DNA of 23,885 bases, taken from the IMG/VR virus record IMGVR_UViG_3300021138_000169, positions 1 to 23,885 of that record; one strand, written 5' to 3'. Each line of letters starts with the position of its first letter. Position 1 is the first letter of the stretch. The notes beneath the pieces are model-generated. The model was not told the origin of the DNA and searched no databases. It was given only the letters and a program-made list of their open reading frames with translations. This document shows positions 1 through 23,885 of this stretch, piece by piece. The stretch is from a virus. A program made the position numbers and the translations under genes.

Positions 1-132
1 GTTCCAAAGTATTTTATTGACCAACACGGCATTTCAGCAGACGCGATTAACGAAGCGTATTTTGTTGGGCGACAAGCAGGGCGGTTGGATATGGCAAAAA
101 ATATTATGGGCGTGATTGGTGAGGGTGAGTGA
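1..132 (+). CDS. C-terminal end of a small unidentified protein (5' truncated)
   Basis: Frame 1 is open from the window edge for 43 codons to the TGA at 130-132. The visible residues include FIDQHGISADAINEAYFVG and a Met-rich helix, and end in GEGE. I do not recognise the protein. The reading is supported by its end: the stop overlaps the next start as TGATG, exactly as in the following genes, and its last codons (GAG GGT GAG TGA) match the C-terminal junction shared by the EIERLR genes downstream. It is therefore probably the preceding member of the same operon. No EIERLR motif is visible in the part present, so I cannot say whether it belongs to that family. Its start lies outside the window. 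Confidence 0.6.
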   Translation, partial: VPKYFIDQHGISADAINEAYFVGRQAGRLDMAKNIMGVIGEGE

Positions 133-449
133 TGGATATCCTTGAACGGTTGCGTAATTTAAGCTGGCAAATTGAATTGGCAAAAGTACAAGCGGACAGA
201 CGTGAAGCCGCCGACGAGATTGAACGGCTGCGGGAAGATAAAGAAATGTGGGCGGACGCCACGGGGAAGGCCGCTAATGAAATTGAACGGCTGCGTAGCC
301 TCCTTAAAAATCCAACAGAGAAAATGTTGAAAGCCGGTCGTGCTGCTAACAAGCTGGTGGCGGGTAATGCTTTGGGGATGGATTGCATAGCGCCGGATGC
401 TGCATGGCGAGTTATGGCTGATCTTGTTTTGGCGGGGAATGAAGAATGA
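132..449 (+). CDS. EIERLR-type small coiled-coil phage protein, copy 1
   Basis: A 105-residue protein starting MDILERLRNL. It carries two EIERLR motifs, near residues 31-36 (AADEIERLRED) and 52-57 (AANEIERLRS). The N-terminal half is charged and predicted helical, so probably a coiled coil. The C-terminal third is more hydrophobic (GNALGMDCIAPDAAWRV). I take the ATG at 132, which overlaps the preceding TGA; a GTG one codon earlier is also in frame. Proteins of this kind (MDIxxRLR at the N-terminus, AADEIERLR inside) are common but uncharacterised in alphaproteobacterial phages. It shares its start region and core motif with the genes at 606, 965 and 1189. The stop overlaps the next ATG. Function unknown. 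Confidence 0.8.
   Translation: MDILERLRNLSWQIELAKVQADRREAADEIERLREDKEMWADATGKAANEIERLRSLLKNPTEKMLKAGRAANKLVAGNALGMDCIAPDAAWRVMADLVLAGNEE
204..237 (+). repeat. 34-bp EIERLR core repeat, copy A
   Basis: This 34-bp stretch encodes EAADEIERLRE and is identical at the nucleotide level to 1258-1291. Shorter, slightly diverged copies are at 279-295, 687-704, 783-805 and 1040-1059. The identity beyond the protein level points to recent duplication or gene conversion. Confidence 0.85.
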
Positions 450-613
450 AAAACGCAATTTTAAGTTCGGCGCTAATAGCAGTCAGCTACTGGATCGCCA
501 ACGTAGCACCGACTGAAGGCCCACTCGCGGTATGGTCGTTTGTCGCTTCGTTTTGTTCGGGGATATGCGGGGGCTTTGTCGCTTTTATCGCGTGGGTGGA
601 GTGGAATGATTGA
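446..613 (+). CDS. small two-helix membrane protein in the EIERLR operon
   Basis: A 55-residue ORF, ATG at 446 to TGA at 611-613. The ATG overlaps the previous stop (ATGA), and its 3' end overlaps the start of the next gene by 8 bases. It is strongly hydrophobic, with two likely membrane segments: residues 4-20 (ILSSALIAVSYWIANVA) and about 27-51 (rich in W, F, C and G). A short Pro/Glu-containing turn (APTEGP) separates them. This is the topology of a small inner-membrane phage protein. I cannot assign a function: a superinfection-exclusion or holin-like role is possible but nothing in the sequence selects one. It differs completely from the coiled-coil proteins on either side, so it looks like an unrelated cassette captured in the array. 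Confidence 0.6.
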   Translation: MKNAILSSALIAVSYWIANVAPTEGPLAVWSFVASFCSGICGGFVAFIAWVEWND

Positions 614-965
614 TATCCTTAAACGGTTAGCACAATGGGCAGAAAACGATATGAAAGCAGAGGCCATCGCTCTGGAAGCTAAATACGAGATTGAACGATT
701 GCGGAAACAAAACCAAACCATGGCGTTAGATCACCTCGCGTCCGAAAGTGAATGGTGGTATTTGTATGGCGATAAAGTCAAAGAAATTGAACGGCTGCGG
801 GAAGCGTTGCGTTCACTTATTGCGGCTTGTGACTCCGGTAAACATGTTCCAATTTTCGGCGTATCAGGCATAACACATGAAGCAATGTTAAAAAACGGGG
901 TAATAAACCGCGTCCCCGCATGGCCTGTTGAAGAAGCCCGTGCCGCATTGAAGGAGGGTGAGTGA
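606..965 (+). CDS. EIERLR-type small coiled-coil phage protein, copy 2
   Basis: A 119-residue protein starting MIDILKRLAQWAEN. EIERLR motifs lie near residues 28-33 (KYEIERLRKQ) and 61-66 (VKEIERLREA), and it ends ARAALKEGE. The frame stays open upstream to 540, but the ATG at 606 is preferred because it matches the MDIxKRLR start of its paralogs. Between the second motif and the C-terminus lies a non-helical segment (IFGVSGITHEAMLKNG) absent from the other copies. The stop overlaps the next start as TGATG. Family function is unknown; a coiled-coil scaffold or host-factor binder is only a guess. Confidence 0.8.
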   Translation: MIDILKRLAQWAENDMKAEAIALEAKYEIERLRKQNQTMALDHLASESEWWYLYGDKVKEIERLREALRSLIAACDSGKHVPIFGVSGITHEAMLKNGVINRVPAWPVEEARAALKEGE

Positions 966-979
966 TGGATATTGTTAAA
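939..979 (+). repeat. 41-bp gene-junction repeat, copy 1
   Basis: It spans the 3' end of the gene at 606 (RAALKEGE), the TGATG overlap and the start of the gene at 965 (MDIVK). It matches 1163-1203 at 39 of 41 positions. Duplicated gene junctions like this are natural sites for homologous recombination that would add or drop whole genes. Confidence 0.8.
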
Positions 980-1189
980 CGGTTGCGCCATGAAGATTGT
1001 TGTGATGCTGTGTATTGCAATTGTGATGAATCTGCTGATGAAATTGAACGGTTGCGGGGAATTTGTAAGGAACTCTTACAACATGCGGAATACCTGCTTT
1101 CTGAAACAGAAAAGGCAAAAGAAAAAGATGTCATTTTGTTGCAGAAACGCATTCTCCGCGCCCGTGCCGCACTGAAGGATGGTGAGTGA
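965..1189 (+). CDS. EIERLR-type small coiled-coil phage protein, copy 3
   Basis: A 74-residue protein, the shortest complete copy. It starts MDIVKRLRHEDCCDAVYCNC and has one EIERLR motif near residues 26-31 (SADEIERLRG), followed by a helical stretch and the shared end RARAALKDGE. Unlike its paralogs it has four cysteines within residues 12-20 (CCDAVYCNC), which could bind a metal, although no known zinc motif is met. The ATG at 965 overlaps the previous TGA; a GTG one codon upstream is the alternative. Start, core and end are each shared with neighbours while the parts between differ, as expected of a mosaic family. Function unknown. Confidence 0.8.
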   Translation: MDIVKRLRHEDCCDAVYCNCDESADEIERLRGICKELLQHAEYLLSETEKAKEKDVILLQKRILRARAALKDGE

Positions 1190-1203
1190 TGGATATTGTT
1201 AAA
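1163..1203 (+). repeat. 41-bp gene-junction repeat, copy 2
   Basis: Second copy of the repeat at 939-979. Within it, 1166-1191 is identical over 26 bp to 1591-1616, the junction between the last coiled-coil gene and the gcrA-like gene. Confidence 0.8.
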
Positions 1204-1614
1204 TATCTGCGTGAATACGCCGGTGAATTAACAGGCTATGCGCCCGATCTTATGGTTGAAGCCGCCGACGAGATTGAACGGCTGCGGGAAGCCCACGATG
1301 ATATGATTCGTCGTGGGCGGTCACAGGCATTGCAAGACATTGCCAACGAAGGCCAGTTGTGCGATCTGCTTGATGCTAAAGACAAAGTGATTGATCGATT
1401 ACAGAATGCTTTGGATCAAGTTCTTGATGACATGGGAGCGGAAGGATATTCTGTTTGCGGCGCTACAAAGGCTCAAGCGAGATATGCGCTTGGTTACAAA
1501 GTTGACCCTGATTTTGACCCTTACCCGCTTGATCGCGCTATTTCAGTTTTGGTTGAGGTTGGTGAGTTTGGCACAAAAGAAGAAGCCTATGCCGCACTGA
1601 AGGATGGTGAGTGA
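1189..1614 (+). CDS. EIERLR-type small coiled-coil phage protein, copy 4
   Basis: A 141-residue protein and the longest copy. It starts MDIVKYLREYAG, has AADEIERLREA near residues 26-36, and a second helical stretch (DAKDKVIDRLQNALDQVLDD) where IDRL replaces IERL. A unique C-terminal module follows, containing GYKVDPDFDPYPLDRAISVL, before the shared end AYAALKDGE. The 34 bp coding for the core motif are identical to copy 1 at 204-237, while its flanks are unrelated, which argues for segmental exchange. The ATG at 1189 overlaps the preceding TGA, and its own TGA overlaps the gcrA-like start. Function unknown. Confidence 0.8.
   Translation: MDIVKYLREYAGELTGYAPDLMVEAADEIERLREAHDDMIRRGRSQALQDIANEGQLCDLLDAKDKVIDRLQNALDQVLDDMGAEGYSVCGATKAQARYALGYKVDPDFDPYPLDRAISVLVEVGEFGTKEEAYAALKDGE
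1258..1291 (+). repeat. 34-bp EIERLR core repeat, copy B
   Basis: Identical to 204-237. The two copies lie about 1 kb apart in different members of the array. Confidence 0.85.
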
Positions 1615-2156
1615 TGACAATTTACTGGTCGAATGACGAAAGAGAGATCGTGTTGGATATGTGGCAGAAAGGGAAAACTGCCTCTGTCATAGCTGAAACG
1701 TTAGGCCAAGGTCGAACACGAAACAGTGTGCTTGGTTATCTTTTCAGGCTTCGCAAGGATCATCCTGAACTGGAAAAGAAAACTTCCCGATCTACAGAGC
1801 GTAAACCTGCGAAAGCCAAAACCTCAAAAGTAAAACGGCCTAAAATGGTCAAGGTTGTTAGAGAGCCTTTGCCAATGGTTAACGCTTACACGCCAATAGT
1901 TGAGGAAGATGCACCAGAAGGAGGCATCCCGTATTTTGAAACGAAACGCTTCCTTCACTGCTCATATATCCTGAATACGTCTCGCGATGCTCACAAAATC
2001 AAATGCTGTGGTGGCAAGCCATTCAAAAATTCGTCATGGTGTCACAAGCATTACCACGAAGTTTTTATAGAACGTACTTCCCACGGAAAACAGGCCGACC
2101 ATTTACCGACTGGCAAAGCTCCGGTGGCATCAGTATTCCTTCTTCGTCAAATGTGA
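1614..2156 (+). CDS. gcrA: GcrA-like cell-cycle transcription regulator
   Basis: A 180-residue protein. Residues 1-48 (YWSNDEREIVLDMWQKGKTA, then IAETLG, TRNSVLGYLFRL) match the GcrA N-terminal HTH. A Lys-rich linker follows (55-82). Residues 114-148 hold a Cys/His cluster (C116, C131, C132, C143, then HKHYH) like the GcrA C-terminal module. In Caulobacter, GcrA binds the housekeeping sigma factor and acts on promoters with methylated GANTC sites. A phage copy would be expected to steer host transcription or cell-cycle state; that is inference. It is last in the plus-strand operon, with the start overlapping the previous stop. Its last 30 codons run antisense into the metallophosphoesterase gene, beyond the conserved domain. 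Confidence 0.8.
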   Translation: MTIYWSNDEREIVLDMWQKGKTASVIAETLGQGRTRNSVLGYLFRLRKDHPELEKKTSRSTERKPAKAKTSKVKRPKMVKVVREPLPMVNAYTPIVEEDAPEGGIPYFETKRFLHCSYILNTSRDAHKIKCCGGKPFKNSSWCHKHYHEVFIERTSHGKQADHLPTGKAPVASVFLLRQM

Positions 2157-3015
2157 GAACGGCAAAACCTGTGTGGGCGCGCGATGGTGCGCCTTCATGG
2201 TACTGGAAGCACTTATGATCTGGATCGCCAAGCATGCCTGTTTCTACGCCCCAGTGCGTCCCCTTGCGGTTTCTGATAGCCGTCACCTGCTGGGCGTGGG
2301 TATGATTGGTCACTGTGGTGATCGCCGCGTTTAGAGCGTTGTTATACGCCGCATGAATACCGCCCCTAAACCGATGCCGCACTTCGACGCTTTCGTTTAT
2401 CGTATAGGCGTAGCAAAATTCCCAAAATGGGAAACGATCCGACAGTCGGCCAATGTAATCATCCAATTCATTAGCTTGATTCGCTAGATAATTATCGACT
2501 CGGATGTCATGGTTTCCGATGGTGAAGATGCGTCTTTTGGCTGCGGGTAATAGCGACATCCATTCCATTGCAGCTTCGATTTCAGCCGACACTTTGGGTG
2601 CAGCAGACTTAAGAGTCGCGCCATGTCGAGATACTCTCGCCCCGTCAATGATGTCGCCATTTAGAATAATTGTGTCGGGTTTAAGCATCTTTGCCGTTTT
2701 GACAAAAGCTTTCATCATTACACTGTTAGTATTTGGCCAGATGTGGGCATCTCCGCCAATTAAAACGCAATCTTCTTTAACTTCACCAGTAAGCATTTGT
2801 GGGTAAAGCCATTGCTGTACTTCGACGTTAATCTTTCCGCTTTCATAATCATTAATAATTTCGGGATAATTTTTTCTTGCCGTGTTTAGCCTACTTTGCA
2901 ATGTCGATGTTGGTATTTTCAGAATCATGGATGCTGCTACCAAACTCTTATTGGCGCGGTAAAAAGCTCTCACACAATCAGTCAGCAATTCTTTTGATAT
3001 TGGGGCAGGTGGCAT
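2065..3015 (-). CDS. calcineurin-like metallophosphoesterase with N-terminal HTH
   Basis: A 316-residue protein. The ATG at 3015 is preceded by a good ribosome binding site (AAGGAG). Residues about 19-47 (YRANKSLVAASMILKIPTST) look like a helix-turn-helix. The catalytic domain shows the family motifs in order: D89/H91 (GGDAH), GDIID at 120-124, GNHD at 167-170, H221 and NHTH at 237-240. The family hydrolyses phosphomonoesters or diesters with two metal ions; in a phage, a nucleic-acid or nucleotide substrate is likely but unproven. It is the last gene of the minus-strand replication group, separated from primase by a plus-strand HTH gene. Its 3' 92 bases overlap the gcrA-like gene antisense. 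Confidence 0.8.
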   Translation of the reverse strand: MPPAPISKELLTDCVRAFYRANKSLVAASMILKIPTSTLQSRLNTARKNYPEIINDYESGKINVEVQQWLYPQMLTGEVKEDCVLIGGDAHIWPNTNSVMMKAFVKTAKMLKPDTIILNGDIIDGARVSRHGATLKSAAPKVSAEIEAAMEWMSLLPAAKRRIFTIGNHDIRVDNYLANQANELDDYIGRLSDRFPFWEFCYAYTINESVEVRHRFRGGIHAAYNNALNAAITTVTNHTHAQQVTAIRNRKGTHWGVETGMLGDPDHKCFQYHEGAPSRAHTGFAVLTFDEEGILMPPELCQSVNGRPVFRGKYVL

Positions 3016-3041
3016 AAACAACTCCTTTTGACTTTCGGCAC

Positions 3042-3069
3042 AAAATACATAAAAACCAATTTATTGCAA
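3042..3069 (-). promoter_or_regulatory. possible sigma-70 promoter for the metallophosphoesterase gene
   Basis: On the minus strand TTGCAA (3069-3064) and TATTTT (3047-3042) are 16 bases apart, which puts transcription start about 20 bases before the ATG at 3015. The region is AT-rich throughout, so a chance match is quite possible. Confidence 0.3.
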
Positions 3070-3096
3070 CCACGTCACAAAAATAGGTTTACTGAC

Positions 3097-3330
3097 ATGA
3101 CCGCAGAGGAATTTACGGCTTTTGTTACTTACGTCAAAGAGGAGTTCGGGGCGTGGGAATATCAACTTGCAAAGGCAATGGGCGTCCATAGAACGTCCAT
3201 TGCAAAGTGGCAAAAGACTGGATCGCCAGCTTACATTGATCTGGCGGCGGCGGCTGTTATCGCTGGGTTAGACCCTTGGCGTCCATCAGTCGAACATCTG
3301 CCCAATCCGAGTTTACGAGTTCAGGGATAG
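3097..3330 (+). CDS. small Cro/CI-like HTH DNA-binding protein
   Basis: A 77-residue protein starting MTAEEFTAFVTYV. Residues 22-42 (YQLAKAMGVHRTSIAKWQKTG) form a clear helix-turn-helix of the Cro/phage repressor type, and a helix (DLAAAAVIAGLDPW) follows. The ATG at 3097 is chosen because the homology-like part begins there; the frame stays open upstream to a TTG at 3028 but has no ribosome site there. It is the only plus-strand gene inside the minus-strand replication block. Its last 25 codons lie antisense over the end of the primase gene, past the recognisable domain. Likely a transcription regulator of the phage; the target is unknown. Confidence 0.65.
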   Translation: MTAEEFTAFVTYVKEEFGAWEYQLAKAMGVHRTSIAKWQKTGSPAYIDLAAAAVIAGLDPWRPSVEHLPNPSLRVQG

Positions 3331-4216
3331 CCACCTCGACCTCCAGCTTGTCCTGCACGACTAACCGCTGGGCGAGGGTGTAAGCTGCCTTATGCCCCGT
3401 AAACGACGAATCGTTATCGCCAAAGATCGTCACCTTTCTGACCGTGTGTGGCGGTTTCCATTTGGCTAGATTCTGGGCGTTAATAGCTGACCAGACGGGT
3501 ATGCGGTTCATTGCAGATGCCGCAATTGCCGTTTCAATGCCCTCCGCAATCCCCATGTGGAAATCGGATGGGCTGAGCCTGATGGCGCATCCGTCTGGAA
3601 TTTGCCCTGCCCCGACACGCTTGGCTGGGTTGACCTTCGCCTTGTGGCCGTCATTCGTCAGATAGGTGATGTGGACGTTGTGAGCCAAATTATCATGGCC
3701 AACAACCTGAGCCACCATTGCCGGAAAACTCTTCTTCGCCTCTGGATGCCAAAGCAGGTTATCGCCCCGATATTCTCTGATCGATTTAGAGAGCCATACA
3801 AGCCCAAGACGCTCCTTCATGTAGGTTGCTACCGGACCGTCCCTTGAAGGCGGCTGTGCTGCCTCCCAAATTGATTTAACGATGCTTCTCTGGCGCAACC
3901 TATCTGTCTGGTCTGTCCCGATGGAAAGTTTCTTGCCAGTGATGCTGCTGATCGTGTTGCAGATCGTCGCAAAGCTTTTTCCGGTCGTCAGTTGAGCCAG
4001 TCGGAAACCATCACCCGCACCACACGAGTTGCAGATGAACGTTCCTCGCCCCTCTTTGTCGTCCCAACGAAAGCGATCCTTTCCGCCGCAGATCGGGCAA
4101 GAGCCATGCTTGTTGACCAAAAAACGGGAATCGACCCCAAGCTGGGGCAGGATTTCAAGCCACTGCCCGCGAGCCAAATCTTCAGGCCGCGCGAATATTT
4201 TGGTTGGATTTTGCAT
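3257..4216 (-). CDS. DNA primase: zinc ribbon plus TOPRIM, no helicase domain
   Basis: A 319-residue protein. The N-terminal zinc ribbon uses C40/C43 (CPICGGKDRF) and C62/C65 (CNSCGAGDG), as in the P4/T7 type of phage primase. The C-terminal TOPRIM part has GIAEGIETA (E225) and GDND (267-269), the acidic metal-binding residues for primer synthesis. Unlike P4 alpha or T7 gp4 there is no fused helicase; the separate SF2 helicase gene immediately upstream overlaps it by 35 bases and may work with it. The start at 4216 has a ribosome site (AAAGGA). It should make RNA primers at the phage fork. Confidence 0.85.
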   Translation of the reverse strand: MQNPTKIFARPEDLARGQWLEILPQLGVDSRFLVNKHGSCPICGGKDRFRWDDKEGRGTFICNSCGAGDGFRLAQLTTGKSFATICNTISSITGKKLSIGTDQTDRLRQRSIVKSIWEAAQPPSRDGPVATYMKERLGLVWLSKSIREYRGDNLLWHPEAKKSFPAMVAQVVGHDNLAHNVHITYLTNDGHKAKVNPAKRVGAGQIPDGCAIRLSPSDFHMGIAEGIETAIAASAMNRIPVWSAINAQNLAKWKPPHTVRKVTIFGDNDSSFTGHKAAYTLAQRLVVQDKLEVEVAIPELVNSDWADVRLMDAKGLTQR

Positions 4217-5684
4217 ATTTTTCCTTTGATTTTGCTTTTACGATGTTGCGGTGTTTGATCCAGCTTAGCGTTGCCGCCGATGGGGCGAGGGCAACACCCT
4301 TAAACGAGTTGGCAGGTCCAACGCCAAATTTATCCTTGTACGCCCAATAAGCCCACCCGTCTTTGAATCCACGAGTAATCGCGTAACCTCGCAATTCTGA
4401 ATAAAAGGTTTCCTTTTCCTTCGTGGTGTAAGCAGGTGTTTGGGTTTTTCCATCTCGTGAAAGCTCGCTGAGGACACCTGTAGCACTTTCAACCTTGCTA
4501 ACAGCCTCAGCCTTGAAACCACATGCAGGGCATTGCTGCGAACGCGGTGGTTTGACAAAAGCGCACGATGGGCAAGCTTTGGGAAGGGCGATCTTTTTTT
4601 CACGTTCTGCCGTTCCTTTTCCTTTTCCGTCATCAAGTTTGTCGTAGGCAATGTCCGTGACAAAGCCCAAACGCAATGTCGTATCGCTATGGTCAAGAAT
4701 CAAGCAATTTTCTTTGCCCTCGGCGGTACGAAGCCCACGCCCGATCATCTGCGTGTACAAAATTTCCGATTTGGTTGGTCTGGCAAGGATAATACACCGG
4801 ACATCCCAGTCAACGCCTGTGGTTAGTACTCCCACGTTGCAGACGATGCGCAAGTCACCATTGGCGAATTGCTTGGCGATTGACGCCCGTTCCAACATAT
4901 CGGTGTACGCATCCATGTAACCTGTTGGAACTCCGGCCTCCAGAAAAAGCGTCTGGATGTGCTTGGCATGCGCCCGATCTACCGCGAAGCAAATCGTCGG
5001 CCTGTTCTCGCCACGTTCGAGCCACGTCGAAATGATATCGGCAACCAACTGGGTCTTGTCCATTGCCTTGCCGAGTTGTTTCTTGTTGTAGTCACCCGCC
5101 ACCAAGGCCACGTTCGACAGGTCTGGGTGGGATGGGGCAAAGACCCTGAAGTCCGACAGATGGCCAAGGTCGATCAGATTTTGCGTTGTCGTGCCAATGA
5201 TCAAATCATCGTACAGGCGAGCCATGCCCTTCGCCCAAGGTGTCGCAGTCAATCCGACCACCGGAACATTTGCCCACTCTGGGCTATTGAACCAATCATC
5301 GTAAAATTTGAACATGACGTGGCACTCGTCCACAATCACCAGATCGGCTTGGGGAATCTTTCTCCTCGCCAGTGTTTGAACTGAACAGACTTGCACGGGT
5401 TGCATCGGGTCTGTGCGTTCATGCAGCGACTGGATGACGCCGATTTCCCAAATGTCGTGCCGTTCAAACTTTTCGACGGTCTGGTCAATCAGGCTGAGCG
5501 ATGGAACGCAGAACAGCACTCGCTTGTTTTTTTCCCGTGCCATTCGCACGATCTCTGCCGCCGCGATTGTTTTACCCGCCCCTGTGGGCATTTGCACGAC
5601 TGGTCTCTTGTGACCACTCGCCAGAGATTTTCGTAATTGGGTGATTGCGTCTGTTTGGTAGTCTCTTAGGATTGCCTTAGCCAT
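4182..5684 (-). CDS. superfamily 2 DEAD/DEAH-type helicase with C-terminal zinc ribbon
   Basis: A 500-residue protein. Motifs: DYQTDAI Q-like motif (8-14), Walker A MPTGAGKT (32-39), DECH (119-122), LTATPW (145-150), TGVDWD (289-294) and QMIGRGLRT (312-320). A four-cysteine zinc ribbon lies at C371/C374 and C385/C388, a layout like that of RadD-type helicases. About 110 residues of unassigned C-terminal domain follow. It should be an ATP-driven DNA helicase or remodeller. It heads the minus-strand group helicase-primase, downstream of the candidate origin gap. It may serve as replicative helicase or in fork repair; the SF2 type makes the second reading equally possible. Confidence 0.88.
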   Translation of the reverse strand: MAKAILRDYQTDAITQLRKSLASGHKRPVVQMPTGAGKTIAAAEIVRMAREKNKRVLFCVPSLSLIDQTVEKFERHDIWEIGVIQSLHERTDPMQPVQVCSVQTLARRKIPQADLVIVDECHVMFKFYDDWFNSPEWANVPVVGLTATPWAKGMARLYDDLIIGTTTQNLIDLGHLSDFRVFAPSHPDLSNVALVAGDYNKKQLGKAMDKTQLVADIISTWLERGENRPTICFAVDRAHAKHIQTLFLEAGVPTGYMDAYTDMLERASIAKQFANGDLRIVCNVGVLTTGVDWDVRCIILARPTKSEILYTQMIGRGLRTAEGKENCLILDHSDTTLRLGFVTDIAYDKLDDGKGKGTAEREKKIALPKACPSCAFVKPPRSQQCPACGFKAEAVSKVESATGVLSELSRDGKTQTPAYTTKEKETFYSELRGYAITRGFKDGWAYWAYKDKFGVGPANSFKGVALAPSAATLSWIKHRNIVKAKSKEKYAKSNQNIRAA

Positions 5685-7719: not shown

Positions 7720-8394
7720 ATGAGTGCAAAGATTGCAACGGCTCTACACAACGTAATGGCTAAGGTTAGCTACGTTCAAAAGGGCGGAGAAAACAAGTTT
7801 CACGGATATAAATACGCTTCAGAGGCAGACTTGCTTGAAAAGCTTCGTCCCGCTTTGATTGAAGAGGGTTTGATCCTGATCCCGTCTGTTGAAATGGTTC
7901 GCCCGATGGACGAGCATGGCAACACGATTGTGGATATGAAATACGAGATCGTTCACAAGGATGGCGATATTTGGCCACATGTTGTGCGCATTTCTGGTTG
8001 TGGCAACGACCGCTCAAAGAATGGTTCTGTTGGCGATAAGGGTGTTTACAAGGCTATCACTGGCGCGAATAAATACCTCTTGTTCAAGCTGTTCCAGATT
8101 GAAACTGGCGATGACCCAGAGAATGATCAGGCTTCCGCCCCAGCAGCACCAGAACCCGCCAAGGTTACGCCTTGGGATAACTATACAAAGGACATGCTGA
8201 CCTATATGCGTGTCTTCCAGATGGCTATCGAAATGTGCGATACTGTCGATGCAGTTCAAAAGTTCTGGAAGCAGGAAGTTAAGGAAAACTTCGCTACCAT
8301 GAAACTTGTGAAAGATGGGCCGGATTACGAAGAATTGCGTAATCTATGCTCGGAACGTGTTGCAGAAATTAATAGTGCTAAAAAAGGAAAGTAA
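7720..8394 (+). CDS. erf: ERF-family single-strand DNA annealing protein
   Basis: A 224-residue protein. The N-terminal two thirds show the ERF pattern: GGENKFHGYKYASEADLLEK (22-41), then LRPALIEEGLILIPS, and the glycine-rich GDKGVYKAITGANKYLLFKL (about 106-125) ending in ETGDDPE. ERF proteins (P22 Erf and relatives) form rings that anneal complementary strands for phage recombination and genome circularisation. A short Ala/Pro linker (SAPAAPEPAKV) leads to a helical C-terminal region that varies in the family. I use the ATG at 7720 after AAGG; an in-frame ATG at 7657 would lie deep in the previous gene. Next come an SSB-like protein and nucleases, the usual partners. Confidence 0.9.
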   Translation: MSAKIATALHNVMAKVSYVQKGGENKFHGYKYASEADLLEKLRPALIEEGLILIPSVEMVRPMDEHGNTIVDMKYEIVHKDGDIWPHVVRISGCGNDRSKNGSVGDKGVYKAITGANKYLLFKLFQIETGDDPENDQASAPAAPEPAKVTPWDNYTKDMLTYMRVFQMAIEMCDTVDAVQKFWKQEVKENFATMKLVKDGPDYEELRNLCSERVAEINSAKKGK

Positions 8395-11012: not shown

Positions 11013-13633
11013 GCAGCTACAGATTTAGCAACTCGCAGTGCTTGCACGATAGCATCGTCAGGCATTGCGAGCATCTGTTCCGTATGGTTTGCCAGAAGCT
11101 TCTGGTTGCGCAAAGATTCATTGACAAGGGCATCAGCCTTTTTATCAATGACAGAACCACCATCCTTGCGCGGCTGGCGAGCTTCTGCCTCTGATGCTGG
11201 AACAGCCGTCTTTGCCCCTATTGTTTGCAAAGCTTTAGCAAGAGATGCATAGCCGTTAGGGTCTGGCCGATTTAGCAATGCCGTCATCAATTCAGGATCA
11301 GACGCAGCTTGTTGCAAAATTTTAATAGTCTGGTCTTTCGTCCCGCCAAAAACCACTTTGCTTATAAGGTCAGTGATCTTTGATGTAACGCCTCGACCAT
11401 ACCCAAGCATGCCAGCTACCGCACCAATGGTCGGGCTTCCGGCAATATTTAATGTATGCTGAGCGACTTGACCTAACAATTCACCCGCGACCGCATCGGA
11501 GATTGCACCAGTTGCTCGACCGTAAAGAATGGTAAACATTCTGTTATCGGCAAGGTTTTTCAATGTGGATTGATCGACAGCTTGGCTAGGTCTGATTTTT
11601 TGCAAAGCACGAGCAGAATTACCTAATGCAGAAACAAACTGCTTTTGCGTTGGGTCAGTGAAAACTTGATCGACCATATCGGCATGACGATCCAGAAAAT
11701 CGGCCAATGCTTTCGGGTTATTGTTTTTAGCAATGTCCGAAAACCGATCCGCAAATTGCCTTTTGGCAGCTTCGGTCGCGCTTTCGTCCGCTCGTTGAGC
11801 AATACCCATTAACCTATCCGAAAGACCCGGCACTTCCTGAATCATAGCCGCGTTTTTAGGATCGGCCATAAACCCGTCAACCGCATCTTTCGTTATATCA
11901 ATTTTATCGCCATTTTTCGTCAGCTTGCCAATCATCCAATTTGACACATCTTCGTCCGCCGCCGTTCCAAACTGGCTGCGAAGTGTGCGAAGATTGTTAA
12001 TGCCCGACATTCCGCCGTACATTTTATTTAATGTCATTTCTGGATCGACATTGGCATTGTTCGCTATGTCGCCAAGGAAATTGTCGCCAAATGTGTCGTG
12101 ATACTGCTTTGTCGCAGCACGAGCTTTGTTCCACGCTTCAATTTCACCATATGTATTACCGAAACGAACATTTTTCGGATCGGACATTACATCGCCAACG
12201 GCGTCAGCAAATCCATAAACGCTTGGGGCGTCCATAGGTTCAGGAGAAGCATAACTTTTTCTTGCAGCCCTTAAAGCCGATGCCCTTAAATCCTGCAACT
12301 CTTGAAAATCAATCTGCGAATTAGGAAGAGATTTCAATCTGTTCAAAGTGCTGACAATGGCACTTGGGAACGTTTGCTTCTTTGCTTCCGTTAATCCATC
12401 AACGTAGTCAAAGAGTGGTTGCAATGATTTATTTTTGTAAAGGCCAGCAGCCTTCAAAGATGGGTCTTGCCATGCAGCAGAAGCTTCCGAATCCATCTTC
12501 TGTTCTAGCGCATCAACCATGCTTCGAACATTGATCGACGCGTCACCTTGCGGGTTTACGCCATTAATACCAAAAGATTCTGGAACGTTAACAGTCGAAG
12601 AACTAACGCTAGTGTCAGCATTTTCAGATGCTTTAGCGGCGGCAGAACCTAACGATTCTTTCGAGACCTCTTCTTGGCCGCGTAATGCTTGAACTTCAGG
12701 TGTGTTTTCAGAGCCTTTCAGCCCTGTTACGTTCTGCGAGAATGCTTCGGCTCTACTTGCCGCTTGTGGACGCCCTTGCGCTTGCAAAGATTGTGCAGTC
12801 GTTAGGTCAACGCCGGGAACAGTTTCTGGTGCTGCTCCAATGGATGTTGGGCCGATCTGATCTGGTGCGACCATATGTTCACGAGCTATCTTGCCAGCAA
12901 TATCTCTGGCGCGCTCTTCCACAACAGGCGCACTTCTAGCCGCAGCAATGGATGATACACCAGCCGCGCCTAAACCGCCACCAATCGAACCAACGATCTT
13001 TGCCCACGGTTCATAATCTGTGCCACGGACAGGCTCTGATAAAGCTTGACCTGATGCACCGCTGATCGCGCCAATGGTGGCACGTTCCGCAGCAGACCCC
13101 GGACCAAGCAATAATGATGCTGGTATCTGCTCTGCCCCAGCTTCAATAATTCTGCCGGGAACTGTTTGCGCAGCAGGTGCAGTTGGGACTCCAACGGATT
13201 CAGCAGCACTTTGGACATCTTGCCTTGAAGGCATTTTAGGGATGTCTTCGCCATGCTTTTTCTCATATGCCGATTCAATGTTTCTTACATTTTGAGTGCT
13301 TTGTTCCCAAGCTTCCGACGAACCTTTTGGCAATATGCCAGCCTTCTCGCCAGCCCAAACGCCGCCACTAACGAGTTTAGCAGGAATGTTTTCGATTACA
13401 TCGCTTAAACCTTGGGCAGTTTCCGGCAAACTATAGACACCACGCTGTATGCCGCTGACCGGAGCCATAGCGACATCTTTTGCTAATGATGGTGGTTCTA
13501 CTTCGTGCCCCGGAATTTTATAATCTGACGGCAATGCAGGATATTTATTTTGACCCGTAGCTGGTTGAGCCGGAGGGTTAAAATATTTTGTAACATCATA
13601 GTCAGTAGGTAAGGGTGCGTAAGTTTCAGCCAT
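11009..13633 (-). CDS. large virion protein, probable DNA-ejection protein
   Basis: An 874-residue protein. The N-terminus has two similar segments (YAPLPTDYDV and YPALPSDYKI). Around residues 180-235 are Gly/Ala-rich hydrophobic stretches (ATIGAISGASGQAL, GSIGGGLGAAGVSSIAAARS) that could insert into membrane; another (SPTIGAVAGMLGYGRG) lies near residue 750. The rest is helical. The C-terminus carries RKDGGSVIDKKADALVNE. Size, composition and place at the end of the late operon suit an internal or ejection protein of a short-tailed phage. I recognise no enzyme domain. The start overlaps the previous stop as TAATG, so it is translated with the 957-residue protein. Confidence 0.65.
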   Translation of the reverse strand: MAETYAPLPTDYDVTKYFNPPAQPATGQNKYPALPSDYKIPGHEVEPPSLAKDVAMAPVSGIQRGVYSLPETAQGLSDVIENIPAKLVSGGVWAGEKAGILPKGSSEAWEQSTQNVRNIESAYEKKHGEDIPKMPSRQDVQSAAESVGVPTAPAAQTVPGRIIEAGAEQIPASLLLGPGSAAERATIGAISGASGQALSEPVRGTDYEPWAKIVGSIGGGLGAAGVSSIAAARSAPVVEERARDIAGKIAREHMVAPDQIGPTSIGAAPETVPGVDLTTAQSLQAQGRPQAASRAEAFSQNVTGLKGSENTPEVQALRGQEEVSKESLGSAAAKASENADTSVSSSTVNVPESFGINGVNPQGDASINVRSMVDALEQKMDSEASAAWQDPSLKAAGLYKNKSLQPLFDYVDGLTEAKKQTFPSAIVSTLNRLKSLPNSQIDFQELQDLRASALRAARKSYASPEPMDAPSVYGFADAVGDVMSDPKNVRFGNTYGEIEAWNKARAATKQYHDTFGDNFLGDIANNANVDPEMTLNKMYGGMSGINNLRTLRSQFGTAADEDVSNWMIGKLTKNGDKIDITKDAVDGFMADPKNAAMIQEVPGLSDRLMGIAQRADESATEAAKRQFADRFSDIAKNNNPKALADFLDRHADMVDQVFTDPTQKQFVSALGNSARALQKIRPSQAVDQSTLKNLADNRMFTILYGRATGAISDAVAGELLGQVAQHTLNIAGSPTIGAVAGMLGYGRGVTSKITDLISKVVFGGTKDQTIKILQQAASDPELMTALLNRPDPNGYASLAKALQTIGAKTAVPASEAEARQPRKDGGSVIDKKADALVNESLRNQKLLANHTEQMLAMPDDAIVQALRVAKSVAA

Positions 13634-16506
13634 TACTGCCTCATCAACAAATCAGTTACACCCTGACCAAATACCGAATCAATTTTTGATCTCATTTGGT
13701 CTGGACCATACTTTTTCAGGTCACTGACCAATGGTGCTGGAACAGTAGAAAGAATCGCCCTTTCAGCATATTTCTCTGGTGGGTTGAACTTCCTGAAAGT
13801 TTCTTCAGCACCATTCAAATTGCCGAATCTCGAATAGTAATCATTCAAGAATGTATTTTTGTCCTGCTTATAACGGGCTGCTTGTTCCAACCCAGTCGTG
13901 ATACGTTCCCAACCCATTTTGGTGTTATTCACACCGGGGTTAGCTTGAACGGATTGTTGAACAATAAAGCCCGGCTCACGTCCCAAAGTACGCGCCAATT
14001 CCGTTCCCAAACGGAAAGAATCTTTTGAGATTTCTTCCCCTGCTGCCAAATTATTAGGATCGAATATAGGTTTCCCGCCCAATGCAGTTACGAAAGCATT
14101 AGCATTTTGCGCAATTTGCAATCTTTGTTCCGCGTATGCTCCCTGTGCCAAGAACCCTGTCGGCTTGAAATTTTCAGCCTGATTCTTCATTTCAGCCAGC
14201 CTATAAATCTGCTGGTCAGCAGCATCAGAATCTGTCTGGTACTGCTTCAAAAGCGGCTCAGCAACTTCTTGCGCTGTTTTTGCAATAGCAGGATCATACA
14301 TATTCATTTGATTAGGAGGCAAATATCCCTTCGGGGCGGACAGAACGGGACTCCACGGTATTGTATCTGCCGCTGTTTTTGGCTCGGTTGCTTTAACTGC
14401 CGGAGCAGGTTGCCCCGTCACATCTGGAGAAACCGCTGGAACGCTTGGAACAGCCGTGCTTCCATCAACGCCCGGAAGCTTTAATGGCGATCCATTGGTG
14501 TCAACCTGACCAGTCAATTTATTGACACGAACCATGCCAACGCCCGGAACAGGCTTCATTTCATAAAGGCTGGCTTGTGACGACAATGCGCGAGCATTCA
14601 ACTCGGCAATTTCGGCAGGTGTCTTTGAGGCGTCAAGCGCAGTGCGAGCTCGCTCGTTCTGGCGAGCTTCTTCCGTCAACTGCAATTCTGCTTGCTGTTT
14701 CTGGAATGCGCGATCATTGGCTTGTGCATTATAGTATGTGCCAAGGCCAGCAGTAGCACCTTCACCAACACCCACGCCAAAGAATGGAGAACGGCTGGAT
14801 AGCATGCCAAGACCCGCCGCAAGCATGCCCATGCGAGCATTATCCGACAGATTAAGCCCCGTCATTTTTTCAACGGCAGTTTGGCCCTTTGAAGGCATCC
14901 AATTGCTAGGCTGATCCGTATTGTCTGACGTATCAGGCGCAACATCCGGCGTTACACCGCCCGACTGTCCATTATTGCCAGCAAATGCCTTGCGATCAGG
15001 AACAACGCCACCCGCCGCGAAATCTGCGCCGCCCCAACCATGCATGGTTTGAGTTGACGTTGGGTCGGATGATGGGAGGATAACGGAAGATGGGGCTACC
15101 GTGCCGTCGGGAGAAGAAAAGAAACTTCCAATCCTCGACATGTTGTTCTGCATATTATAGCGTTGATCTTTTGACGCATTAGCTAATTGCTTAGCCACGT
15201 CCATCATCGTGCCTTCTTCGAAAGGCCGTGGGGCTTCTGGAATAGTGGTCTTTCCGCCCAACTTGCCCTGAGCAATCAAGGAAGCCAATGGCATCAAACC
15301 CTTTAACGTTAAAGGAGAAGTTCCAGACCCACCTGATGGTTGGCTCGTATATGGAATGTCGGATACTGAACCAGCAGTAGCGAAATGACTGCGGCCAAGC
15401 CCCTCTTGAACTGCGCCGCCCATCCAGTCAGCAAGACCGCCATCAGCAAAATGGCCTCTGTCCGCCGCACCTTCCGTAGCGCGTTCATAATCGACCATGC
15501 GCATTCCATCGGTGGAATGATGCACGGCATCTGGTTTATGCTTTTCGACTTCCTGCGCGCTCAGGCCAAGCATCGTATGGCCATCACCCTTGTAGTTGAA
15601 TTTGTAGATATTCTGACCATCGAAGGTCTTACCTACGGGCTTCATGTTTTCCTTCAGGCGTTCATCAGAAGGCCAAGGAATTGAGCCAAGGGTCATCAAC
15701 CCGCCAAGAAGCTGCGAGCCAACATTTGGGCCGGGCTGCGATGTAAGCGACGTGCCGCCCGACTGTCCGCCAATACCCAAAAGAAGGTTGGCAAGATATT
15801 GCGTGGTTTCGAACGGATATGCCTGACCAGCTTGCCATTGCTGCTGATTGGCAGTGTCTTGAGCCTGTTGCACGGCCTGTTGCTGAGCACCAGCACCAAG
15901 CTGAGCTTGCGCCCCCTGCAATGCGGCAGATTGCGCCGCCGTACCAAAGCCACCAATCGTTTGACCAGCGGCAAGGGCGCGAGCCTGATCGGCGTTGAAC
16001 TGCTGTTCAGCCTGACCGTAGCCCCCCTGATAAACGTTAGCCATTGTTTGACCCGTAGCGAGACCTTGCTGGCGAGCCAATTCGGCTTGAGCGATACCAG
16101 CGCGATCACCACCAAATGCGCCGCGACCGATGGCACTTCCCAAAACCTGCTGCTGTTGCTGAGCATTGGTTTCGTTAAGGTTAGCCATCGTTTCGTTCGC
16201 CACATTGCTAATGTATGGCGACATATATTGATTAGCGGTTTGAGGCGTCCAGCCTTGCCCAGCTTGCTGAGCATAGCCAGTAGCAGCCTGATAGTATGGC
16301 TGAGCCATACCAGAAGCTGCGTTTACATTCTCGATGCCAGCCTGTTGTGTCGGGGTAAGACCCGCAACCATCTCACCGCCATATTGTGTAAATGGCGTAT
16401 TCGCGACGTTCTCGGCGCGTGAAGCTAACATTTTATAATTAGCCGCAACATCCGCCGGAGGGCTGAACGATGAAGAGGTAGTTGACGAGCCTTTAGAACC
16501 GCACAC
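13633..16506 (-). CDS. large virion protein with internal peptidase S74 chaperone-like domain
   Basis: A 957-residue protein. It begins with GTG at 16506, supported by a strong ribosome site (AGGAGA). Residues 1-275 are Gln/Ala/Gly-rich (NAQQQQQVLG at 114-123). At 280 comes SDERLKENMKPVG, then LSAQEVEKHKPDAV (315-328) and DYERA (340), the signature of the S74 intramolecular chaperone, which normally ends tail spikes. Ser280 is at the usual self-cleavage position. Low-complexity segments with FADGG-like motifs follow, then about 300 mainly helical residues at the C-terminus. Position next to the 874-residue protein suggests an ejected or tail-tip protein. Confidence 0.7.
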   Translation of the reverse strand: MCGSKGSSTTSSSFSPPADVAANYKMLASRAENVANTPFTQYGGEMVAGLTPTQQAGIENVNAASGMAQPYYQAATGYAQQAGQGWTPQTANQYMSPYISNVANETMANLNETNAQQQQQVLGSAIGRGAFGGDRAGIAQAELARQQGLATGQTMANVYQGGYGQAEQQFNADQARALAAGQTIGGFGTAAQSAALQGAQAQLGAGAQQQAVQQAQDTANQQQWQAGQAYPFETTQYLANLLLGIGGQSGGTSLTSQPGPNVGSQLLGGLMTLGSIPWPSDERLKENMKPVGKTFDGQNIYKFNYKGDGHTMLGLSAQEVEKHKPDAVHHSTDGMRMVDYERATEGAADRGHFADGGLADWMGGAVQEGLGRSHFATAGSVSDIPYTSQPSGGSGTSPLTLKGLMPLASLIAQGKLGGKTTIPEAPRPFEEGTMMDVAKQLANASKDQRYNMQNNMSRIGSFFSSPDGTVAPSSVILPSSDPTSTQTMHGWGGADFAAGGVVPDRKAFAGNNGQSGGVTPDVAPDTSDNTDQPSNWMPSKGQTAVEKMTGLNLSDNARMGMLAAGLGMLSSRSPFFGVGVGEGATAGLGTYYNAQANDRAFQKQQAELQLTEEARQNERARTALDASKTPAEIAELNARALSSQASLYEMKPVPGVGMVRVNKLTGQVDTNGSPLKLPGVDGSTAVPSVPAVSPDVTGQPAPAVKATEPKTAADTIPWSPVLSAPKGYLPPNQMNMYDPAIAKTAQEVAEPLLKQYQTDSDAADQQIYRLAEMKNQAENFKPTGFLAQGAYAEQRLQIAQNANAFVTALGGKPIFDPNNLAAGEEISKDSFRLGTELARTLGREPGFIVQQSVQANPGVNNTKMGWERITTGLEQAARYKQDKNTFLNDYYSRFGNLNGAEETFRKFNPPEKYAERAILSTVPAPLVSDLKKYGPDQMRSKIDSVFGQGVTDLLMRQ

Positions 16507-23315: not shown

Positions 23316-23885
23316 TTATGGATGGCTTGCTTTATATGCGTCAAATTCTGCTTTAAGTTCCTGCAAGGCTTTGACCAATAATGGAACCAATTTACTGTAA
23401 TCTACGCCCATCATTTCGTTTTCATCAATCGGCGTGTGTACAGCTTCTGGTACAAGTTGATTAAGTTCTTGGGCAATCACACCATAGCGGTTGTGAGAAC
23501 CGTCTGATTTCCAGTCGAAAGACCGGATTTGAATGGCGTCAATGATGGATGAGGCTGATGGAGCATCAACTATATTGGTTTTTAACCGTTGATCGGATGT
23601 AATGTTGTAAAGAACACCCGTTGTGCCGTTTTGCGCAATTGTTCCTATTGTTGTTCCAGCATATTGAAAGTTTGCATACCAATTTCCAGAAGCCGTACCG
23701 TTTGCATGTCCTATTGCAACATAAGAAATTGATCCAGCTTGATTGAAAATGCCGCCGTTTGTTACAGTGGCACTCGTCGTCCCAATACCTACGTTGCCGT
23801 TGGTATCAATTGTCATGCGAGTAGATTGGCTACCCGTTTTAAAGATAATACTGTCGGACGTACCCGCGCCAGACGTGGATTCCAG
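23316..23885 (-). CDS. C-terminal part of a tail fibre or spike with S74 chaperone domain (partial)
   Basis: The frame is open from the right edge for 189 residues, so the start is outside the window; an internal ATG at 23816 is not the true start. The visible part runs SIIFKTGSQSTRMTIDTNGN, GNVGIGTT, a beta-rich repeat, then SDQRLKTNIVDAPSASSIID, YGVIAQELNQLVPEAVH and VDYSKLVPLLVKALQELKAE. This is a canonical peptidase S74 chaperone: it helps the fibre trimerise and then cuts itself off before the Ser of SDQRLK. It is the first gene visible in the late operon and should determine receptor binding. Confidence 0.88.
   Translation of the reverse strand: MESTSGAGTSDSIIFKTGSQSTRMTIDTNGNVGIGTTSATVTNGGIFNQAGSISYVAIGHANGTASGNWYANFQYAGTTIGTIAQNGTTGVLYNITSDQRLKTNIVDAPSASSIIDAIQIRSFDWKSDGSHNRYGVIAQELNQLVPEAVHTPIDENEMMGVDYSKLVPLLVKALQELKAEFDAYKASHP

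Follow-up and report, generated by a model that had tools for sequence, protein, structure and literature searches.

In type I restriction systems, the HsdS subunit carries variable modules between conserved helical regions, and recombination swaps its specificity. In the T-even adhesin gp38, conserved motifs have a role in recombination and segments can be swapped in frame. Glycine-rich motifs are placed between the hypervariable segments of this adhesin (PMC12529663). Cluster K mycobacteriophages carry Start-Associated Sequences (SAS), a short asymmetric repeat located just 5' of the start codons of many unrelated small genes, which its authors propose as a possible target of homologous recombination (PMC3203893). 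Rad52-like phage recombinases drive mosaicism and recombine divergent DNA, with traces of homology at the mosaic borders (PMC3945230). The lambda exo-xis region contains early accessory, mosaic small genes, one of which, Ea22, is variable in its N-terminal region and also has a coiled coil and a distinct C-terminal domain (PMC8614690).

The DNA analysed here (the window) is the complete record of an uncultivated virus, 23,885 bases long, which may well represent a fragment. Four small genes (g1 to g4) lie on the + strand at its left edge, between positions 132 and 1614, and have a start block and an EIERLR core in common (Table 1). The initial annotation had described these four genes as built on three blocks, a start, a core and an end. 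This description holds for the start block (MDIxxRLR), present in all four genes, and for the core, but the end block AALKxGE is found in three genes only, since g1 terminates in ...LAGNEE, and the blocks of g2 are variant: this gene begins with MIDILKRLAQ and its cores read AKYEIERLR and VKEIERLR instead of AADEIERLR. Both g1 and g2 contain two cores. A degenerate codon pattern for EIERLR occurred six times in the record, always within the array, and the reversed control pattern never. As had been claimed, nucleotide identity is concentrated in the blocks: 203-237 and 1257-1291 are identical over 35 of 35 bp (34 of 34 in the earlier reading), and the two other repeats are slightly longer than first stated, with 42 of 44 bp between 936-979 and 1160-1203 (formerly 39 of 41) and 27 of 27 bp between 1165-1191 and 1590-1616 (formerly 26 of 26). 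The product of the gene interposed between g1 and g2 is probably membrane-spanning, as judged by its hydrophobicity, and gave no significant family match in Pfam, PHROG and NCBIfam scans. Very short hydrophobic genes, probably encoding membrane proteins (e.g. MEIGTNLAQTLQFLFAIIGAIGVACVVLKGE), are repeatedly interleaved between cassettes with the same junction element, in L112, L130, L132, L160, L184, L224 and at 446-613 of the window.

Table 1. Coordinates of the array and associated features in the window.
Feature	Position	Strand	Remarks
Junction element before g1	118-134	+	divergent copy, 3 mismatches
g1	132-449	+	105 aa; start block, two EIERLR cores, C-module KNPTEKMLKAGRAANKLVAGNALGMDCIAPDAAWRVMADLVL
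Core block, g1 core 1	203-237	+	identical to 1257-1291
Core block, g1 core 2	266-300	+	
Interposed gene	446-613	+	55 aa; overlaps of 4 bp with g1 and 8 bp with g2
g2	606-965	+	119 aa; N-module AQWAENDMKAEAIALEAKYE, inner module, second core, C-module, AALKEGE end
Core block, g2 core 1	674-708	+	
Core block, g2 core 2	770-804	+	
Junction element g2/g3	951-967	+	AAGGAGGGTGAGTGATG, Shine-Dalgarno and TGATG stop/start overlap
g3	965-1189	+	74 aa
Core block, g3	1027-1061	+	
27-bp junction repeat, copy 1	1165-1191	+	g3 end/g4 start
g4	1189-1614	+	141 aa; cassette missing from L007
Core block, g4	1257-1291	+	identical to 203-237
27-bp junction repeat, copy 2	1590-1616	+	g4 end/gcrA-like start
GcrA-like gene	1611-2156	+	borders array, uses same junction element; Pfam GcrA E 6e-9
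ERF-family single-strand annealing protein	7720-8394	+	candidate recombinase; Pfam ERF E 7e-18

The end block, with the stop/start overlap, had been described as one of the blocks common to the array genes. The AALKxGE repeat is real, but its bases, (GC)ACTGAAGGAGGGTGAGTGATG, are chiefly the Shine-Dalgarno site and the stop/start overlap of the next gene, and they also serve unrelated small genes. In the end-block DNA CTGAAGGAGGGTGAGTGATG, AAGGAGG stands seven bases 5' of the next ATG, and the upstream gene translates the same element as its C-terminal ...AALKEGE. Each gene junction would thereby carry, within a single element, the ribosome-binding site of the following gene (AAGGAGG) and the overlap between stop and start (TGATG). 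With at most three mismatches, AAGGAGGGTGAGTGATG is found four times in the window, always at the start of an array gene or of the gcrA-like gene, for 0.07 copies expected in shuffles. With at most two mismatches, about 100 copies were counted in 29 related records, on a single strand within each, for none of the reversed control; another record, L223, has one copy on the opposite strand. Across the fetched loci, 148 distinct junction elements were collected, 76 preceding EIERLR-type genes and 72 preceding other small genes, which include short hydrophobic (membrane-protein) and gcrA-like genes. Near position 2845 of L184, the upstream gene ends in a different frame and the element is still intact, so what is conserved is the DNA signal of the junction and not the peptide. 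A purely conserved protein tail was dropped as an account of the end block for the same reason.

Comparison of near-identical phages revealed the gain or loss of whole genes. A 4.9-kb contig, L007, is 100% identical to positions 21-1191 and 1590-5350 of the window and is missing exactly g4, with its joint inside the 27-bp repeat that flanks this gene in the window. The missing length is 425 bp, which is not a multiple of three, a loss that is harmless because the repeat carries both the stop and the start. This difference could also be an assembly artefact, given that an exact 27-bp repeat can collapse in short-read graphs. We find this explanation quite unlikely, as the same type of joint separates phages that are 1-4% diverged, one of the two states being found in two contigs, and as the module pairings described below are independent of the L007 case. 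L201 shares 96-98% identity with L237 and L242 over 5-6 kb and has about 0.8 kb, with three or four small genes, that is missing from both, the joint lying exactly at GGAGGGTGAGTGATG. Similarly, three small genes are absent from L219 compared to L224 (97-98.8% identical), with a joint at CCGCACTGAAGGAGGGTGAGTGATG. In these two comparisons, blocks of small genes appear to be missing or inserted, either direction being possible, and a shared assembly error is unlikely because the contigs are 1-4% diverged elsewhere. L161+L136, taken as one, differs from L184 (99.97% identity over 6.3 kb) by two genes and one N-module swap. A fixed gene set with uniform divergence was not seen among the related phages compared.

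To describe the organisation inside the genes, 165 distinct block-bearing genes from 102 loci were cut at their cores into modules. Among the recurrent families, 16 of the 18 on the N-module side were found with at least two different C-module families, and 17 of the 18 on the C-module side with at least two different N-module families. In 71 gene pairs, the DNA of the N-modules matched at 95% identity or above, and just 20 of these pairs had the C-module in common. The stretches between the blocks had been called unrelated, which is correct inside the window, but most of them are closely related to stretches that other phages carry in different combinations. The C-module DNA of g1 is 81% identical to that of L180 and 71% to those of L155 and L143, where it is carried on other N-modules; the N-module of g2 is 95.6% identical to that of L188 and 90% to that of L064, each with a different C-module, and its inner module 75% to those of L049 and L170. 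The two halves of g3 find their relatives in two different contigs (N-module, 94.6% to L105; C-module, 94.7% to L181), and the N-module of g4 is 78.6% identical to that of L134. In some genes (L139, 1164-1289; L181, 122-352), a C-module is joined straight to the start block, as expected because start and core have GAACGGTTGCGG in common.

These pairings bear on the possibility that the array arose by ordinary tandem duplication and divergence, the genes being paralogues in which the blocks are kept by purifying selection on the coiled coil and the linkers have drifted, with no special recombination. Such an origin would agree with the conservation of the core at the protein level (0.14, 0.07 and 0.33 differences at the three codon positions, respectively, hence mostly at third positions) and with the frequency of the same motif in unrelated phage contigs. 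However, linkers recur elsewhere at 75-96% DNA identity with different partners, identity ends abruptly at the blocks, and near-identical phages differ by whole-gene indels at the repeat. Duplication and divergence is largely refuted by N-modules more than 95% identical placed on unrelated C-modules, and we regard it as very improbable.

Some proteins related by position or motif were also noted. In relatives without the EIERLR array (L187, L190-L196; 7390-8500, - strand), the same slot holds other small proteins that follow the pattern MTGFxSKK...RYAD..T..LxxLRxEN..LRE...CSCKxRDxELxQMF. Segments of these MTGFxSKK-type proteins are fused to EIERLR modules in L170 (6377-6757) and L188 (7399-7641), and the pool of modules therefore extends beyond the EIERLR genes. 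A looser family, M(S/T)DDIVxRLR...AADEIERLR..., often ending in xxRGWDCxK, was found among the matches listed (L010-L129, e.g. L084 and L124); these matches come from many other viral contigs, where it occurs singly and not as a tandem array.

The position of the exchanges was then expressed as breakpoints, defined as the ends of homologous segments of at least 80 bp and at least 90% identity inside the arrays. Of 433 distinct breakpoints, 77% lay no more than 6 bp from a block (start, end or core), compared to a mean of 29% and a maximum of 35% in 2000 trials with random positions. It should be noted that the loci used for the breakpoint and pairing counts were found by searching for the block sequences and that near-identical contigs are only partly weighted out. 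Junction elements were also in excess within 1 kb of a contig end (27 of 60 vs 11.3 expected), as expected if repeats, or variable spots and population variants, interrupt contigs. Taken together, the near-identical contigs, the module pairings and the breakpoint statistics support the proposal of the initial annotation that cassettes are gained, lost and hybridised at junctions. At the level of the DNA sequence, they demonstrate the exchange of whole genes and half genes with joints in short repeats.

An enrichment of breakpoints at the blocks could nevertheless result from selection. The repeats would then be mere translation signals and helix-coding motifs, recombination would be generic and mostly illegitimate, and after selection for frame the blocks would be the places where breaks survive and not where they arise. 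This explanation gains from the Shine-Dalgarno site held by the junction element and the many gene types it serves, from the fact that junction exchange is always frame-safe and from the lack of a dedicated recombinase common to all records. By contrast, the joints in L007, L237/L242 and L219 are base-exact in the shared repeat, as predicted for homology-directed joining, and codon usage alone would give a less uniform core DNA. Indeed, core codons are more uniform than those of the rest of the same genes (ATT, 95% vs 60%; CGG, 79% vs 35%). Since third-position variation dominates in the cores, yet remains below that of the rest of the genes, the core is held at both the protein and the DNA level. 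On balance, we consider that breaks merely surviving at the blocks is an unlikely explanation.

Regarding the enzymes involved, the products encoded in the window include an ERF annealase together with a RusA resolvase. The initial annotation had suggested that ERF might take part. Its gene is indeed present in the window, but only 8 of the 29 array-bearing records, many of which are fragments, encode ERF (the window and 7 of the 28 others), and ERF was dropped as a universal marker of the array. RecT was found in none of the array records searched, many of them again fragments. Another possibility is a programmed, site-specific or retro-element diversification involving integron-like cassettes, an invertase or a diversity-generating retroelement. 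The cassette-like behaviour and the conserved element at every boundary would be in keeping with such a system. However, among 22 array records, which may be fragments, none encodes a tyrosine recombinase/phage integrase, none a reverse transcriptase and two a serine resolvase. Moreover, the cores too serve as exchange points, and the single-strand orientation of the element copies in 29 records, the opposite-strand copy of L223 set aside, is also unfavourable. Programmed diversification is refuted for the enzyme families searched, in records that may be fragments, and appears extremely improbable.

We therefore favour, as likely, the view that the array consists of cassettes for early accessory proteins, whose diversity results from recombination over short homologies, both at translational junctions and at coiled-coil cores. 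Homology is found at the borders of the exchanged segments, at the breakpoints as well as at the joints of L007, L201/L237/L242 and L219. Recombination between two junction elements would add or delete whole genes without breaking the reading frames. Inside the genes, the start block (MDIVERLR) and the core (ADEIERLR) would encode a conserved helix motif, and recombination between two cores, or between a start and a core, would swap N- and C-terminal halves in frame. The joints may be made by homologous recombination or annealing, the likely catalyst being a phage single-strand annealing or relaxed homologous recombination activity working on 20-45 bp of homology. The products retained by selection would most likely be short helical accessory proteins binding varied host or phage partners, a part of the model that we put forward with less confidence.

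The modules are under purifying selection, with a pN/pS of 0.15 over 222 pairs and of 0.20 when one pair per family is retained, and are therefore parts of working proteins. The array products are predicted to be short helical proteins: the AlphaFold2 monomer of g3 is composed of a short helix, a loop and one long helix (pLDDT 86.7), and that of g4 is a helical hairpin (pLDDT 80.2, pTM 0.40). Scans of the four array proteins against Pfam, PHROG and NCBIfam returned just sub-threshold coiled-coil matches, and 30 array relatives gave single weak matches only, with no common Pfam or PHROG family. A PDB sequence search and fold searches against PDB and viral structures gave no meaningful fold for the array proteins; the best viral fold match (E 0.009) was an uncharacterised uncultured-phage protein. 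Searches of cultured-phage records returned nothing useful, which is weak evidence of absence because the low-complexity filter may mask helical proteins. Two exact patterns had no match in bacterial genomes, a search that prophage relatives with other codons or spacing would escape, and a literature search with the motif retrieved nothing relevant.

Phages with a related phosphoesterase (65-73% identical) keep a backbone of Cro-like, phosphoesterase and gcrA-like genes, and the slot adjacent to gcrA is occupied by different small genes in each of them. The gcrA-like neighbour is conserved in the relatives L187-L196, and in L188 a C-5 cytosine methyltransferase precedes the array. The array region appears to be accessory in nature. 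In alphaproteobacteria, GcrA acts as a sigma-70 cofactor, and a gcrA-like gene beside the cassette slot hints at an alphaproteobacterial host and at phage control of methylation-dependent transcription. Elsewhere in the window, a Peptidase_S74 (endosialidase-type intramolecular chaperone) domain is present in two proteins (13633-16431 and 23316-23885); in the former, it lies mid-protein (residues 255-304 of 932 aa) and not at the C-terminus.

A broader reading can be offered tentatively, although we think it rather doubtful: helical modules of three kinds (N-terminal, inner and C-terminal), forming a common pool across several phage backbones, might be continually reassorted in frame at the three short blocks, giving each phage its own set of small partner-binding proteins, for example against varied host defences. 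In any case, these comparisons locate, to the base, the sites at which small accessory genes are acquired, lost or hybridised in natural phages. A ribosome-binding site can itself serve as such an exchange point, which provides a simple rule for frame-safe cassette evolution without an integrase. With the junction element as a DNA handle, small phage proteins can also be gathered from a large and unstudied pool, of the sort where host-takeover and counter-defence functions tend to sit.

When compared to the systems described above, the array resembles the lambda exo-xis region and Ea22 in its type of region and its module layout, and none of 30 array proteins gave an Ead/Ea22-type Pfam or PHROG match. 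Unlike HsdS, a large DNA-recognition subunit, the array proteins are mostly 40-200 aa long and have no apparent methyltransferase partner. As in the mosaicism driven by Rad52-like recombinases, exchange would proceed by homology, with homology at the segment borders, but the homologies reported there extend over hundreds of bases (PMC3945230), whereas the array blocks are short, regular and repeated within one genome and inside genes. As in gp38, short conserved coding motifs alternate with variable segments; however, gp38 is encoded by one tail-fibre adhesin gene per phage and has a known role in host range, whereas the array is made of many tandem small helical proteins. SAS provides a working analogy in that the array element also precedes several gene families (EIERLR, membrane-protein and gcrA-like genes). 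It differs from SAS in spanning the stop/start overlap, in encoding the C-terminal residues of the preceding protein and in that gene gain and loss are seen directly. The SAS sequence GGGATAGGAGCCC has no match in the window with up to two mismatches. By analogy, the array may work like SAS combined with the module swapping of T-even adhesins, and it is a member of neither because the SAS sequence is absent and no protein family is shared. The array is a form of known phage mosaicism, made unusual by its regularity and by the use of the ribosome-binding site as the exchange point.
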